Assembly: GCA_000171875.1 (NCBI GenBank)
Contig: ABHI01000004.1
Span: forward strand, 107,501-171,500
Reading direction: 5' to 3'
DNA: 64,000 nt
From: Flavobacteriales bacterium ALC-1
GTDB taxonomy: Bacteria; Bacteroidota; Bacteroidia; Flavobacteriales; Flavobacteriaceae
Below the pieces are notes generated by a model, which saw only the letters and a program-made list of their open reading frames with translations, was not told the DNA's origin and did not search any database. The translations under genes and the position numbers were made by a program. This document shows, in pieces, positions 19,840 to 49,124 of this stretch. Positions within the stretch are counted from its first letter, which is position 1; each line of letters opens with the position of its first letter.

Positions 19840-19912
19840 GACCAGTTAGCTCAGTTGGTAGAGCATCTCCCTTTTAAGGAGAGGGTCCTGGGTTCGAGCC
19901 CCAGACTGGTCA
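19840..19912 (+). tRNA. tRNA-Lys (anticodon UUU)
   Basis: The full cloverleaf can be drawn: acceptor GACCAGT / ACTGGTC, D arm GCTC...GAGC, anticodon stem TCTCC / GGAGA with loop CTTTTAA (anticodon TTT), T arm CTGGG-TTCGAGC-CCCAG and discriminator A. The 3' CCA is not encoded. Confidence 0.97.
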
Positions 19913-19913
19913 C

Positions 19914-19944
19914 AAAAAGTTAAGCAATTAAAGCTTAACTTTTT
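19914..19944 (+). terminator. intrinsic terminator between the two tRNAs
   Basis: A perfect 12-bp stem (AAAAAGTTAAGC / GCTTAACTTTTT) with a 7-nt loop and a T run begins 2 nt after tRNA-Lys. It should end most transcripts before tRNA-Leu. Confidence 0.8.
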
Positions 19945-19967
19945 TTTTACCTTTACTTACCTAAAAT

Positions 19968-20051
19968 GCGCACGTGGCGGAATTGGTAGACGCGCCAGCT
20001 TGAGGGGTTGGTGGACATTAGTCCGTGGAAGTTCGAGTCTTCTCGTGCGCA
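19968..20051 (+). tRNA. tRNA-Leu (anticodon GAG)
   Basis: Type II tRNA with a long variable arm. Acceptor GCGCACG / CGTGCGC, D arm GCG...CGC, anticodon stem CCAGC / GTTGG with loop TTGAGGG (anticodon GAG), T arm with GTTCGAGTC, discriminator A at 20051; CCA not encoded. It lies behind a terminator and shows no full consensus promoter of its own (only TACCTTTA near 19948), so it may depend on read-through from tRNA-Lys. Confidence 0.95.
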
Positions 20052-43812: not shown

Positions 43813-45051
43813 ATGACAGAAAAACAACATATTATAGATCGTTTTATAAGCTATGTCACCATAGATACCGAATCTGACCCAAATTCTAAAACCACACCAA
43901 GCACAGCCAAACAATGGGATTTGGCCAACAAACTAGCTGAAGAACTTAAAGCTATTGGTCTGAGTGATGTTAGTATAGATGATAACGCATATATTATGGC
44001 TACCTTACCTAGTAATGTAGATTACGATGTACCAACTATTGGGTTTATATCACATTTTGACACCTCACCAGATTTTACAGGAGCAAATGTAAACCCTCAA
44101 ATTGTTGAAGATTACAACGGAAAAGATATTATCCTTAATGTCGAACAAAACATTGTGTTGTCACCAGACTATTTTGAAGATTTGTTACTCTACAAAGGCC
44201 AAACATTAATCACCACTGATGGCACAACACTATTGGGTGCTGACGATAAAGCTGGTATTACTGAGATTGTAACTGCGATGGAATACCTGATTAATCATCC
44301 GGAAATTAAACATGGAGCTATTAAAGTAGGTTTTACTCCAGATGAAGAAATTGGCAGAGGAGCACATAAGTTTGATGTCGAAAAATTTGGAGCCGATTGG
44401 GCTTACACTATGGATGGTAGCCAGATTGGAGAATTAGAGTACGAAAATTTTAATGCAGCAGGAGCTGTTATAAAGGTAAAAGGTAAAATTGTACATCCAG
44501 GTTATGCCAAAGGTAAAATGGTGAATTCTATGTACTACGCCTCAGAGTTTATCAACGTATTACCACGATTAGAAACACCTGAACACACTGAAGGTTACGA
44601 AGGTTTTTTTCATTTACATACCATAAATGGCAAAGTTGAAGAAACCATTTTACAATACATTATTAGAGATCACGACAAAGACAAGTTTGAGGCAAGAAAA
44701 GCTTTAATGGGAAAGATTGTATTGGACCTTAACACCAAGTTTGAAGCAGAAATTTTTGAAATAGAAATCAAAGATCAATACTTTAACATGAAAGAAAAGG
44801 TAGAACCTGTAATGCATATTATAGATATAGCAGAAGAAGCGATGAAGCAATTAGGCATAAAACCTCTTATTAAACCCATTAGAGGAGGAACTGATGGCTC
44901 ACAACTCTCGTACATGGGTTTACCTTGTCCAAATATATTTGCAGGAGGACACAATTTCCATGGACGTTATGAATATGTCCCAGTAGAAAGCATGCTTAAA
45001 GCTGTAGAGGTGATTTGTAAAATTGCAGAGTTGACGGCTATAAAAAAATGA
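43813..45051 (+). CDS. pepT: peptidase T (tripeptidase)
   Basis: Zinc-dependent M20B aminotripeptidase of the cytoplasm. The 412 residues show [10 protein letters not shown] (first zinc ligand), LGADDKAGI (bridging Asp), [12 protein letters not shown] (catalytic Glu) and [31 protein letters not shown] (remaining ligands; cited here only as its parts GGTDGSQ and GGHNFHG). The ATG at 43813 ([11 protein letters not shown]) is preferred over a TTG at 43792. The repeat-bounded cassette-like region begins just after its stop codon. Confidence 0.93.
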
Positions 45052-45098
45052 GTATGTAAATTCTAATTATTACAATCACATATTAACAACAAAACATC

Positions 45099-45131
45099 TA
45101 GCCAACATAACTAACCATACACAAGACCATT
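45099..45131 (+). repeat. partial copy A of the cassette-type repeat (3' end)
   Basis: CCAACATAACTAACC followed by ATACACAAGACCATT matches, with a few changes, the last third of copy B (CAACGTAACTAAAC, TATACAATAACGTT) and copy C (CAACTAAACATACACAAACAC). Only the 3' end is recognisable; it lies between pepT and the lipoprotein gene. Confidence 0.55.
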
Positions 45132-45145
45132 ATCGAAAATTGAAA

Positions 45146-45640
45146 ATGAAAAGAATAGTTATTACAATTTTCATATTACTCTTAATTATAGGTTGTACTG
45201 CACAAAAAAAGTACTACTTAAAAGCGCAAGATTTTACAGGTAAGAAAATTATTTTTTCGCTACAAGAAGGATCCAGCTACCAAAAAGTCGATAAATTTGG
45301 AGAGCACTCGGGAAACTCTAAGGAACCAAATCTTTTTGAAGTATTAAGACAATCTATTGATGAATTATCTGATGAAACAAAAATAAATATGGTTTACTCT
45401 CATAGTAATGTTTTTCCAACTGACTCAATCATACCGGTTATTGTTAATATTAAAAATATAGATTGGATATTTAATGGCACTAAAAATACAATGAATGTAA
45501 ATATAGAATATCAATTACCTGATCGACTTATTAAGATTGTTGGAACTCATAAATATAAAATATTTGTTGCAGGAACTAAGTCAGGAAATCTTAAAAAATC
45601 ATTAAAAGATGGACATAGGCAGTTACTATCTGCTTTTTAA
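45146..45640 (+). CDS. hypothetical lipoprotein (first cassette-like unit)
   Basis: A 164-residue lipoprotein, signal MKRIVITIFILLLIIGC with the lipidated Cys17, then TAQKKYYLKAQDFTGKKI. No acidic surface-export patch follows, so it may stay in the periplasm. The mature part is alpha/beta with IIPVIVNIKNIDW and ends KDGHRQLLSAF. No family recognised. ATG 45146 is preferred over TTG 45140. It is bounded by a partial repeat upstream and a full repeat downstream. Confidence 0.65.
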   Translation: MKRIVITIFILLLIIGCTAQKKYYLKAQDFTGKKIIFSLQEGSSYQKVDKFGEHSGNSKEPNLFEVLRQSIDELSDETKINMVYSHSNVFPTDSIIPVIVNIKNIDWIFNGTKNTMNVNIEYQLPDRLIKIVGTHKYKIFVAGTKSGNLKKSLKDGHRQLLSAF

Positions 45641-45670
45641 ATAATCATATAAGGAAAATAAGCTTTTGGT

Positions 45671-45800
45671 AACACCGCGTAAAATTAATTGCTAGTTTAT
45701 TGTCGACTTACGAAAATTCCTTCGGAATTTTCTCTGGTACGTTTTTGTTTGCTAAATTAGTTGCTTAAACAACGTAACTAAACTTATACAATAACGTTGG
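45671..45800 (+). repeat. full copy B of the cassette-type repeat, about 130 bp
   Basis: The element starts AACACCGCGTAAAATTAATT, has a central perfect 9-bp hairpin (GAAAATTCC 45712-45720, loop TTC, GGAATTTTC 45724-45732), then TTTGCTAAATTAGTTGCT, and ends ACTAAACTTATACAATAACG followed by TTGG. Copy C has the same order and spacing, with its own compensated hairpin. From memory, similar intergenic elements with a GAAAATTCC...GGAATTTTC core are frequent in flavobacterial genomes. Confidence 0.75.
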
Positions 45801-45813
45801 CAAAAATATTGGT

Positions 45814-46320
45814 ATGAACTATTCTATTAATGATTTAATTTCTATATTAGATTTAAAACCACATCCTGAAGGTGGTTTTTTTAAGGAAACTTATCGAAGT
45901 AAAGGAGAAATTGATGAAAGTAGTTTAGAAAATGGTTACGAAGGGAAAAGAAATTATTCAACTTGTATTTATTTTTTATTAACCTCGGAAAATTTTTCTG
46001 CATTCCACAGAATAAGGCAAGATGAAATTTGGCACTTTTACTATGGTTCTCCTATAAATTTGCACATCATTTCAGAATCAGGTCGATATATAAACCATGC
46101 TATTGGAATAGATATAAAAAAAGGAGAGGTTCCACAGTTTATTGTTCCTGGAGGAAGTTGGTTTGCTGCAGAAGTTGTTAATCAAAATTCACACTCTCTT
46201 ATTGGATGTACTGTATCCCCTGGGTTTAGTTTTGAGGACTTCGAATTAAAATCTAGAGACGAATTAATTTCTTTGTTTCCAGATAAAAAAGAAATCATAT
46301 CTAGGCTAACCCATTTCTAA
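45814..46320 (+). CDS. cupin-fold protein, DUF985 family
   Basis: A 168-residue single-domain cupin. It shows LDLKPHPEGGFFKETYRSK near the start, then STCIYFLLTSENFSAFHRI and QDEIWHFYYGSPINLHII, and near the end PGGSWFAAEVV and GCTVSPGFSFEDFEL. These match the DUF985 family (relatives bind a small ligand; some plant and yeast members are called YML079w-like). The biochemical role is unknown. It is the second cassette-like unit, bounded by repeats B and C. Confidence 0.85.
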   Translation: MNYSINDLISILDLKPHPEGGFFKETYRSKGEIDESSLENGYEGKRNYSTCIYFLLTSENFSAFHRIRQDEIWHFYYGSPINLHIISESGRYINHAIGIDIKKGEVPQFIVPGGSWFAAEVVNQNSHSLIGCTVSPGFSFEDFELKSRDELISLFPDKKEIISRLTHF

Positions 46321-46332
46321 AATACAGTTATC

Positions 46333-46460
46333 AACACCTTGTATAATCAATTGCTGGATAGTGTTTAATCATTAGCACGGAAATTCTGCCAAATTTCCTA
46401 TACGAAGTTCTTTTTTGCTAACTTAGTGCTCACAGCAACTAAACATACACAAACACACTG
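46333..46460 (+). repeat. full copy C of the cassette-type repeat, about 128 bp
   Basis: Begins AACACCTTGTATAATCAATT then GCT, has the central hairpin GGAAATT (46379-46385) / AATTTCC (46392-46398), then TTTTGCTAACTTAGTGCT, and ends CAACTAAACATACACAAACAC. It aligns with copy B from end to end with many substitutions; the hairpin is kept by matching changes on both sides. Confidence 0.72.
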
Positions 46461-46490
46461 TATCTAATTAAAACCATCCTTGAAAACAAA

Positions 46491-47387
46491 ATGATTTTAC
46501 CGAAAAACGACTTTCTAAAAGCAAGAGATTTTATATTGACAAATGCAAGAATGATTGAAAGACGTCTCTTTGATTTTCATTTTTCAAACGGAGATATGAA
46601 CGGTGTTTTTCATTCCCTATATGCTTACCGAAATCCTGATGGCGGATTTGGACACGGAATGGAACCAGATACAGCATCACCTGAAAGTCAACCTCTATTT
46701 AGCATTATGGCACTTGAAACGCTCGATGAAGTTGGTTATCTGACCAAAGAAATCATTCTAAAAGACTTTATGCCATATTTTGTAAGTATAACAACAGAGA
46801 AAGGTGGTATTCCTTGGATGTTTAGACCAAAAAGTGATTACCCCTGCGAAGGACATTTCAAAACAGTTAAAGAATGGGCGGCTTTAAGTACTACTGCACC
46901 TTTACTTGGAATTTTAGAAAAATATGAGATTGATATACCTTGGATGAAAAAAGCAGAACAGTTTGTTTGGAGTGAATTTGAGAGAATAAAAGATAAACAT
47001 GTTTTTTGCTACTTATGTGTACCAAGATGGTTAACTTTTTTAAAGTATACTAAAAGTCAGGATAAAGCTAAAAAGACTATCAATGACTTAAAAAACTGGA
47101 TATTGAAAAACGGAATAATTTGCGAAGATAAATCTGATGAAGGTTGGGGACTTTACGGAAAACCACATAGTTTAAATTATGCAACATCTTCCGGAAGTAT
47201 TCTATATTCGTTATTCACCAAAGAAACTATTGAATCTGATTTGAAAGAATTAATCAACAAACAGAAAAATGATGGACGTTGGGATACTTGGTATGGCATT
47301 AGTGAAGGAACAAAATTAGAATGGGCCGGTATTCAAACATTGTGGGTATTAAAGACCTTAAAGAATTATGATAAAATTGAAAAATAA
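46491..47387 (+). CDS. alpha/alpha-toroid protein, terpene cyclase/prenyltransferase-like fold
   Basis: A 298-residue soluble protein. Repeated motifs of the squalene-cyclase/prenyltransferase barrel are visible: YAYRNPDGGFGHGMEPDT near 45-65, QPLFSIMALETLDEVG after it, and near the end KNDGRWDTWYGIS and LEWAGIQTLWVLKTLKNY. The DxDD or zinc-binding residues of known cyclases and farnesyltransferases are not evident, so catalysis cannot be claimed. No signal peptide or membrane segment. Third unit of the repeat-bounded stretch, between copies C and D. Confidence 0.68.
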   Translation: MILPKNDFLKARDFILTNARMIERRLFDFHFSNGDMNGVFHSLYAYRNPDGGFGHGMEPDTASPESQPLFSIMALETLDEVGYLTKEIILKDFMPYFVSITTEKGGIPWMFRPKSDYPCEGHFKTVKEWAALSTTAPLLGILEKYEIDIPWMKKAEQFVWSEFERIKDKHVFCYLCVPRWLTFLKYTKSQDKAKKTINDLKNWILKNGIICEDKSDEGWGLYGKPHSLNYATSSGSILYSLFTKETIESDLKELINKQKNDGRWDTWYGISEGTKLEWAGIQTLWVLKTLKNYDKIEK

Positions 47388-47392
47388 ATAAA

Positions 47393-47450
47393 AACTATAC
47401 GCAAAGGCTTGTATATCTCATTGTTTCTGAATTTCCTGTCTAGGAATTAT
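47393..47450 (+). repeat. partial copy D of the cassette-type repeat (5' half and hairpin)
   Basis: ACTATACGCAAAGGCTTGTA then TATCTCATTG resembles the start of copy C (AACACCTTGTATAATCAATTG). It is followed by an imperfect hairpin, AATTTCC (47430-47436) / GGAATT (47443-47448), in the position of the element core. The 3' part is missing. Weaker than B and C. Confidence 0.4.
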
Positions 47451-47466
47451 AATTAAAAAAAATAAA

Positions 47467-48662: not shown

Positions 48663-49124
48663 ATGCCAACAACTAAACAACTAGCAAAGCATATACACCA
48701 AATCTATTTTGGTGGTAATTGGACAGAAGTCAATATAAAAGATACGGTCTCAAGTATTTCTTGGGAAGTCGCAATCAAAAAAATGGACAACTTTAATTCC
48801 ATTTTGGCACTTACCTATCATATTCATTACTTTTCCAAAGTACAACTTAGAGTTTTAGAAAATGGTGTGTTAGAGGGTAAAGACAGTGAAAGCTATGACC
48901 ATCCTGAAATTACATCACAATTAGATTGGGAAGCCTTACACCAATCTATGTGGCAAGATGCAGAACGTTTTACTGAGTTAATACAACAATTACCTGATAC
49001 CATTTTAGACCAACCTTTTACTAATGATAAATATGGTACTTATGCTACTAACCTCTTAGGGTTAATAGAGCATACGCATTATCATTTAGGTCAGATTATC
49101 ATTATAAATAAAATGATAACGTAA
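48663..49124 (+). CDS. DinB-like / DUF1572-type protein
   Basis: A 153-residue four-helix-bundle protein of the DinB superfamily. Metal-ligand histidines can be placed in LALTYHIHYFSK and in LLGLIEHTHYHLGQIIII, the usual C-terminal HxxxHxxQ arrangement. Members bind divalent metals; some act as thiol transferases for mycothiol or bacillithiol, but most are uncharacterised. No signal peptide. Convergent with the hemolysin III gene. Confidence 0.8.
   Translation: MPTTKQLAKHIHQIYFGGNWTEVNIKDTVSSISWEVAIKKMDNFNSILALTYHIHYFSKVQLRVLENGVLEGKDSESYDHPEITSQLDWEALHQSMWQDAERFTELIQQLPDTILDQPFTNDKYGTYATNLLGLIEHTHYHLGQIIIINKMIT

Follow-up and report, generated by a model that had tools for sequence, protein, structure and literature searches.

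The window analysed here is a stretch of 64,000 nucleotides (nt) from Flavobacteriales bacterium ALC-1 (assembly GCA_000171875.1, contig ABHI01000004.1, positions 107,501 to 171,500 of the forward strand), in which three genes behind pepT are set apart by copies of an element of about 125 nt, very probably the attC-like recombination site of an integron-like cassette system. All features of the locus lie on the plus strand. The left flank, pepT (43813..45051; named in the first reading of the sequence and found in congeners), is followed by copy A (45109..45131), a remnant that corresponds to the right half (L'-R') of such an element, and by cassette 1 (45130..45670), with an open reading frame (ORF) of 166 amino acids (aa), which was called a lipoprotein in the first reading and has no Pfam or NCBIfam match. 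Copy B (45671..45798), a complete element running from AAC to GTT, precedes cassette 2 (45799..46332), the 168-aa ORF of which is a Cupin_5 (DUF985) protein (PF06172, 2.4e-53). Copy C (46333..46459) is also complete, with its final GTT decayed to ACT, and precedes cassette 3 (46460..47407), with a 298-aa ORF that was described as toroid-fold in the first reading and likewise matches nothing in Pfam or NCBIfam. Copy D (47408..47454) is a probable remnant of the left half (R''-L'') of another element variant, and a DinB-like gene (48663..49124; label given by eye) forms the right flank.

A covariance model (R1), for which 27 elements including B and C served as the training set, recovered B (45671-45798) with 112.6 bits and C (46333-46459) with 92.9 bits, and found no other match in the window at an E-value of 0.01. 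Copy C was also recovered at 1.1e-13 by a hidden Markov model (HMM) built from copies of the array described below, with neither B nor C in training. Thus, B and C are homologous copies of one element, as the earlier note had proposed. The same note had taken A and D for partial copies. For A, this reading is borne out by 22 of 23 bases that equal the right end of the array element AACTAACCATACACAAGACCGTT (chance expectation 0.00), its full-length alignment not rising above shuffles (34.5 vs a shuffle maximum of 42.5). For D, the reading is probable: the score of 44 exceeds the maximum of 300 shuffles (40; mean 25.3), and the local match (about 47408-47454) is weak and concerns the left half of one variant only. 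Motif scans within the window gave no excess over chance (13 matches vs 12.1 expected; 9 vs 9.8 expected), with B, C and A as the only standouts, and an Rfam search of the element returned no family at gathering score.

The elements are not confined to the window. The motif TTGCTAANTTAG matched 31 times genome-wide, compared with 8 times in a reversed control, and formed a single-strand run in contig C6. The genome search with R1 (E ≤ 0.001), of the kind suggested in the earlier note, yielded 61 copies, 31 of which lie within C6:510-550 kb on one strand, while the remaining ones make up shorter rows on C1, C3, C5, C7 and C8, the window pair and solitary copies. In C6:495-571 kb, 29 complete elements were read between 512.5 and 549.8 kb; each closes a unit, usually of one gene, and a gene for a 376-aa tyrosine recombinase stands at the head of the array. 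This gene is one of three PF00589 genes found in a search of the whole genome, all located outside the window, which agrees with the lack of an integrase there stated in the earlier note, although the window itself was not searched for one by name. Four elements (L032:15573-15723, L032:9989-10139, L032:5762-5911 and L031:18196-18346) are about 26 nt longer, the extra length being a GC-rich insert (GCTGCGCCAGTTCGCTGCGCTCGTGTC or similar) within the central hairpin, which gives the impression that a further repeat has inserted itself at the variable tip.

The AAC and GTT cores at the element ends delimit the units. In the C6 array, each cassette opens after GTT with seven bases that pair with those preceding the AAC of its own element at 170 of 203 positions (10,000 shuffles: mean 74.6, maximum 115), and poorly so to the element directly preceding (81/203). 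This count keeps 29 of 32 places, three having fitted just part of the model, and includes two spans longer than 4 kb (3/7 and 1/7), probably of more than one cassette each. Of 196 cassettes from 36 other loci, all of 150-2500 nt and with the ends of their elements covered, 167 are complementary at 5 or more of the 7 bases, compared with 22.6 on average and 38 at most in shuffles, and with 32 when the element is taken as it lies in place; L226 and L227 are the only pair of these loci with some identical 200-mers. In integrons, attC is completed only in the cassette circle, and a like reason would be expected here, namely that each cassette was once circular, with its start and its element forming one complete site. 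The canonical consensus of attC ends is RYYYAAC/GTTRRRY. Such ends, which had not been evident in B and C, are also rare among the 196 cassettes (GTTRRRY in 8, RYYYAAC in 9), in which the family differs from IntI integrons, the AAC...GTT cores being present nonetheless. In a set of 223 cassettes, the longest ORF is on the recombinase strand in 180.

Covariation was assessed in 74 of 130 elements from 37 named loci (at most three per locus, identical ones excluded), which were collected by a sequence HMM, the stem having first been seen in a separate set of 27 elements. In the outer L''/L' stem, which is the stem of the consensus fold, 98.1% of 1181 cells are paired and 11 of 16 pairs show double changes; the covariation score is 0.455, compared with 0.114 for shuffled and at most 0.082 for slid controls. 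The earlier suggestion that pairing is kept thus holds for the family as a whole, as counted in the outer stem, whereas the suggestion had referred to the central hairpin. Two pairs are G.U in 73/74 and 74/74 elements on the bottom strand and would be A.C on the top strand, and the consensus fold of the 27 elements is predicted at -16.1 kcal/mol for the bottom strand vs -0.14 kcal/mol for the top. Predicted folding and covariation therefore favour the bottom strand.

To examine the link between recombinase and array, 80 named loci were collected with the recombinase as the sole search criterion. In total, the 387 kb downstream of the recombinase hold 160 elements, all on the recombinase strand, while 6 elements were found in the 743 kb upstream. 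At least one element is present in 40 of the 44 loci with at least 3 kb downstream, and in 50 of the 60 with at least 1 kb. Many contigs break off shortly after the recombinase, which is what repeats would lead to. Behind the recombinase stop codon lie a palindrome, a few bases, GTT and the first cassette, an arrangement regarded as the putative attI. The palindrome arms vary between species and match at 10 or 11 of 11 positions in 47/71 loci (1% of mononucleotide shuffles). GTT follows the palindrome at 4-7 bases in 56/71 loci and is missing at that distance in 12/71, several of these because the first of two palindromes was picked. The core after the palindrome is mostly CGTTG or TTGTTG/TTGTTA for type A recombinases, to which that of the C6 array belongs, and, judged by this layout, cassettes would be received at G^TT beside the recombinase gene, as at an attI.

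Type A recombinases consist of an N-terminal domain without a named family, which adds about 100 residues, and an Xer-like core. Across 41 members, no Pfam match of the N-terminal domain was better than E 0.011, and Foldseek found no match in PDB at E 0.001. The first 115 residues had no match in a phage collection and one weak match among plasmids (Persicobacter, 30%), and viral contigs gave seven weak matches, in the core-binding part only. With type-A residues 1-215 as a query, at least 572 relatives were found; the best 80 come from genera that we take to be Flavobacteriaceae or from unresolved Flavobacteriales, Bacteroidia or Bacteroidetes bins, and the closest among the relatives listed are from Winogradskyella (94-95%), which makes it probable that the host of the window is a member of this genus. 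Type B recombinases (L184, L185, L186, L187, L188, L193, L194 and L195) are 33-38% identical to type A, have a longer C-terminus in most cases and head arrays of the same elements, with an attI core of CATATAACYAGTT or similar. One genome (G040) carries two type-A recombinases (L198 and L197), each with a dense array.

Integrons are defined by the integrase IntI and are known for the spread of antibiotic resistance. The flavobacterial cassettes, being tandem, mostly single-gene and in one orientation, each with its own foldable site, are arranged as in IntI integrons and the Vibrio superintegron; the AAC/GTT core, a putative attI beside the recombinase gene, the predicted bottom-strand fold and the single orientation are likewise shared with integrons, in part as described in PMC9668308 and PMC2727003. 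A true but diverged integron, with an IntI-type integrase and attC sites that have drifted in sequence, would account for these likenesses, and is nevertheless unlikely. The IntI-specific insertion is absent from the recombinase: two common anchors are 85 residues apart in 30/30 IntI rows, compared with 43-44 in 22/22 type A/B rows and 49-50 in 4 Xer rows, and the TIGR02249 match of the recombinase falls below cut-off. PMC9668308 describes this additional domain of IntI as necessary for integron recombination. In an unrooted tree with insert columns partly kept, the 30 IntI rows lie on one side of a 100/100 branch and types A, B and C on the other, the A+B+C branch itself having a support of only 87/71; the recombinase is thus not within the IntI clade. 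One of the recombinase analyses used 42 of 72 recombinases. In addition, when run over 30 stretches with IntI genes (134 kb in all, partly overlapping, flanks mostly 1.5 kb), the element model matched once, and weakly (E 0.018).

Further differences from IntI integrons concern the long palindrome with variable arms in the putative attI, and the putative marking of the strand by two near-invariant G.T wobbles, where attC uses extrahelical bases according to PMC2727003. The recombinase gene points towards its cassettes, an orientation atypical for integrons and reported for Treponema in PMC3607928. Unlike XerA, XerC and XerD, the recombinase heads a cassette array and has the additional N-terminal residues. 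By its sequence features, the system would function like an integron, and it lacks features by which an IntI integron is defined. For Bacteroidetes, the IntegronFinder 2.0 paper (PMC9024848) gives only In0 elements from earlier work, followed by a single complete integron, that of Salinibacter ruber. No such system as the present one was described in the titles and abstract openings searched, a coverage that takes in neither preprints nor most subscription journals.

Signs of cassette movement are present in several genomes. On the chromosome of Lacinutrix neustonica (NZ_CP113088.1, L214), one cassette occupies attI as well as two attC joints, in copies that are 96.8-99.7% identical and all start at GTT. 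A cassette of G121 recurs at the attI of Aquimarina (L228; 83.5% over the full length), one of G113 in Xanthomarina (L266; 97.5%), and one of Lacinutrix algicola (L218) in G040 and at a type-B attI of G121 (80-82%). In total, 24 of the 223 cassettes recur, with 47 matches, many of them within the same locus. Among the 40 of these 47 matches that were listed, the flanks score 0.40-0.51 where measurable, and random pairs score 0.43 (standard deviation 0.02, maximum 0.50).

The pepT site offers a comparison among congeners. pepT was matched in 56 of 59 of them, with a dihydroorotate-dehydrogenase-like gene (label by eye) next to it in most fetched loci. None of the three cassette genes of the window has a counterpart beside pepT among the congener matches listed, and homologues are found at other places in a few congeners; that of cassette 3 (81.5%, L183) has no R1 match in the surrounding 15 kb. 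Sixteen congener loci were fetched, two of which end early at contig ends: 14 have no elements, L176 has one weak element (E 0.0048) and L167, of genome G183, has three clear ones. In G152, a single small ORF separates pepT from the DinB-like gene and cassettes are absent, while in G183 three different cassettes lie between these two genes, with complementarity of 7/7 each (by eye) and the start ATACTAAC^GTTG. No recombinase was noticed at this site of G183, where ORFs were only read and which was outside the recombinase scan. The gene gain and loss at the elements anticipated in the earlier note is therefore seen as differing content behind pepT, and cassettes seem to have entered this site repeatedly. 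The window set is an old, partly decayed patch of three cassettes at a secondary site, on a contig other than that of the main array. Behind the last G183 cassette, four adjacent ORFs of 254-257 aa (L167:6290-9484) with very similar starts (MIKFFRHIR...) form a tandem family.

Homologous recombination between repeats, with the nearby recombinase unrelated to it, might also shuffle genes, since RecA could act on similar repeats and duplicated cassettes occur within one array. This is very improbable, however: the homology of moved cassettes begins at GTT, the edge of the element body, copies stand at attI, where an element body is lacking, complementarity binds each cassette to its own element, and the recombinase-array link holds in 40/44 loci. 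That the elements are passive repeats, such as terminators or hairpins like repetitive extragenic palindromes (REP) or miniature inverted-repeat transposable elements (MITE), intergenic by chance, would suit their intergenic, hairpin-forming and multi-copy nature and the missing Rfam family, and is scarcely credible given that it predicts neither the complementarity, nor one strand for 160/160 elements, nor the fixed G.T wobbles, nor whole cassettes at several joints. The grounds for rejecting terminators, REP/MITE hairpins and shuffling by RecA are the complementarity, the one-strand elements and the cassettes at several joints.

We are thus left with the reading that the elements are attC-like sites of an integron-like system with a type A tyrosine recombinase, for which the sequence evidence leaves little doubt, and which agrees with the mobile single-gene insertion system, resembling cassette recombination sites, that the earlier note had suggested. 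The recombinase would recognise the folded bottom strand of an element and join it at G^TT to the attI directly behind its own gene, to another element or, occasionally, to a secondary site. A cassette, as a rule a single gene with its element, would leave as a circle and be inserted again in a fixed orientation, so that arrays build up, and the window patch would be an insertion at a secondary site behind pepT.

Several observations weigh against this reading. The chemistry, the single-stranded substrate, the circles and the role of the N-terminal domain are inferred, and the folding is a prediction, made for the consensus with RNA parameters. Single-molecule DNA folds of B and C are not significant on either strand (z -1.1 to -1.7), so two copies alone are insufficient to reveal the structure. 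No element is present in 4 of the 44 loci with at least 3 kb of downstream sequence or in 10 of the 60 with at least 1 kb, 24/71 palindromes fall below 10/11 arm matches, and among the 223 cassettes the longest ORF is on the opposite strand in 8 and no ORF of at least 40 aa is present in 35. Of 22 hand-picked array genomes, two (G059 and G071) have only Xer-like matches, and the N-terminal query matched in 43/149 family genomes (30 at E<1e-18) vs elements in 129/149; diverged type B recombinases and orphaned elements may explain this gap. In the window, complementarity between start and own end is 5/7 for cassette 1 and only 3/7 for cassette 2 (both by eye), and with the GTT lost in C and A and D reduced to fragments, these may be dead copies.

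More tentatively, and with the odds somewhat against the proposal in full, this may be a second kind of integron, of Xer-like origin separate from IntI, in which a recombinase that gained an XPB/HARP-like domain reads folded single-stranded sites, choosing the strand by the two near-invariant G.T wobbles (A.C on the top strand), and which would serve Flavobacteriaceae as their chief means of capturing genes, in a role comparable with that of the Vibrio superintegron. A cassette platform with sites in most of the flavobacterial genera sampled, and with a recombinase that lacks the additional IntI domain, would open the evolution of single-strand cassette recombination to testing and provide many unexplained mobile genes, including candidate defence genes, with exact boundaries.

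The elements are frequent in flavobacteria, as the earlier note had stated, the 129 genomes given above being from a set with one genome per genus. In the phylum, 47 of 395 genomes have them, about 27 of these outside the family. Outside the class, elements were found without an adjacent recombinase match (L327-L332 and L335; stretches read), and IntI loci, read with short flanks, were almost devoid of elements, so cassettes seem to travel. Flavobacterial-type elements in this group, at L327 (G251:C44), L328, L329 and L335, include the TGGCTATAAGTAATTGCT variant in a row, and some of these genomes also carry IntI over cut-off elsewhere. The IntI model passes the cut-off in 105/395 phylum genomes; of the 107 genomes listed for IntI at E 1e-60, only G242 belongs to the class of the window's host and none to its family.

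Cargo was assessed on 115 cassette ORFs out of 180, with the array of this genome represented in full by its 25 and the other 155 by a random 90. In total, 76 Pfam and 101 PADLOC models were matched, none of those listed by more than two proteins, and defence-like matches include the Pycsar cyclase, PD-T4-1 and PDC-S20 models. Elsewhere in the window, positions 1-405 are part of a 16S rRNA gene on the minus strand, and two tRNAs are located at 19840-20051.
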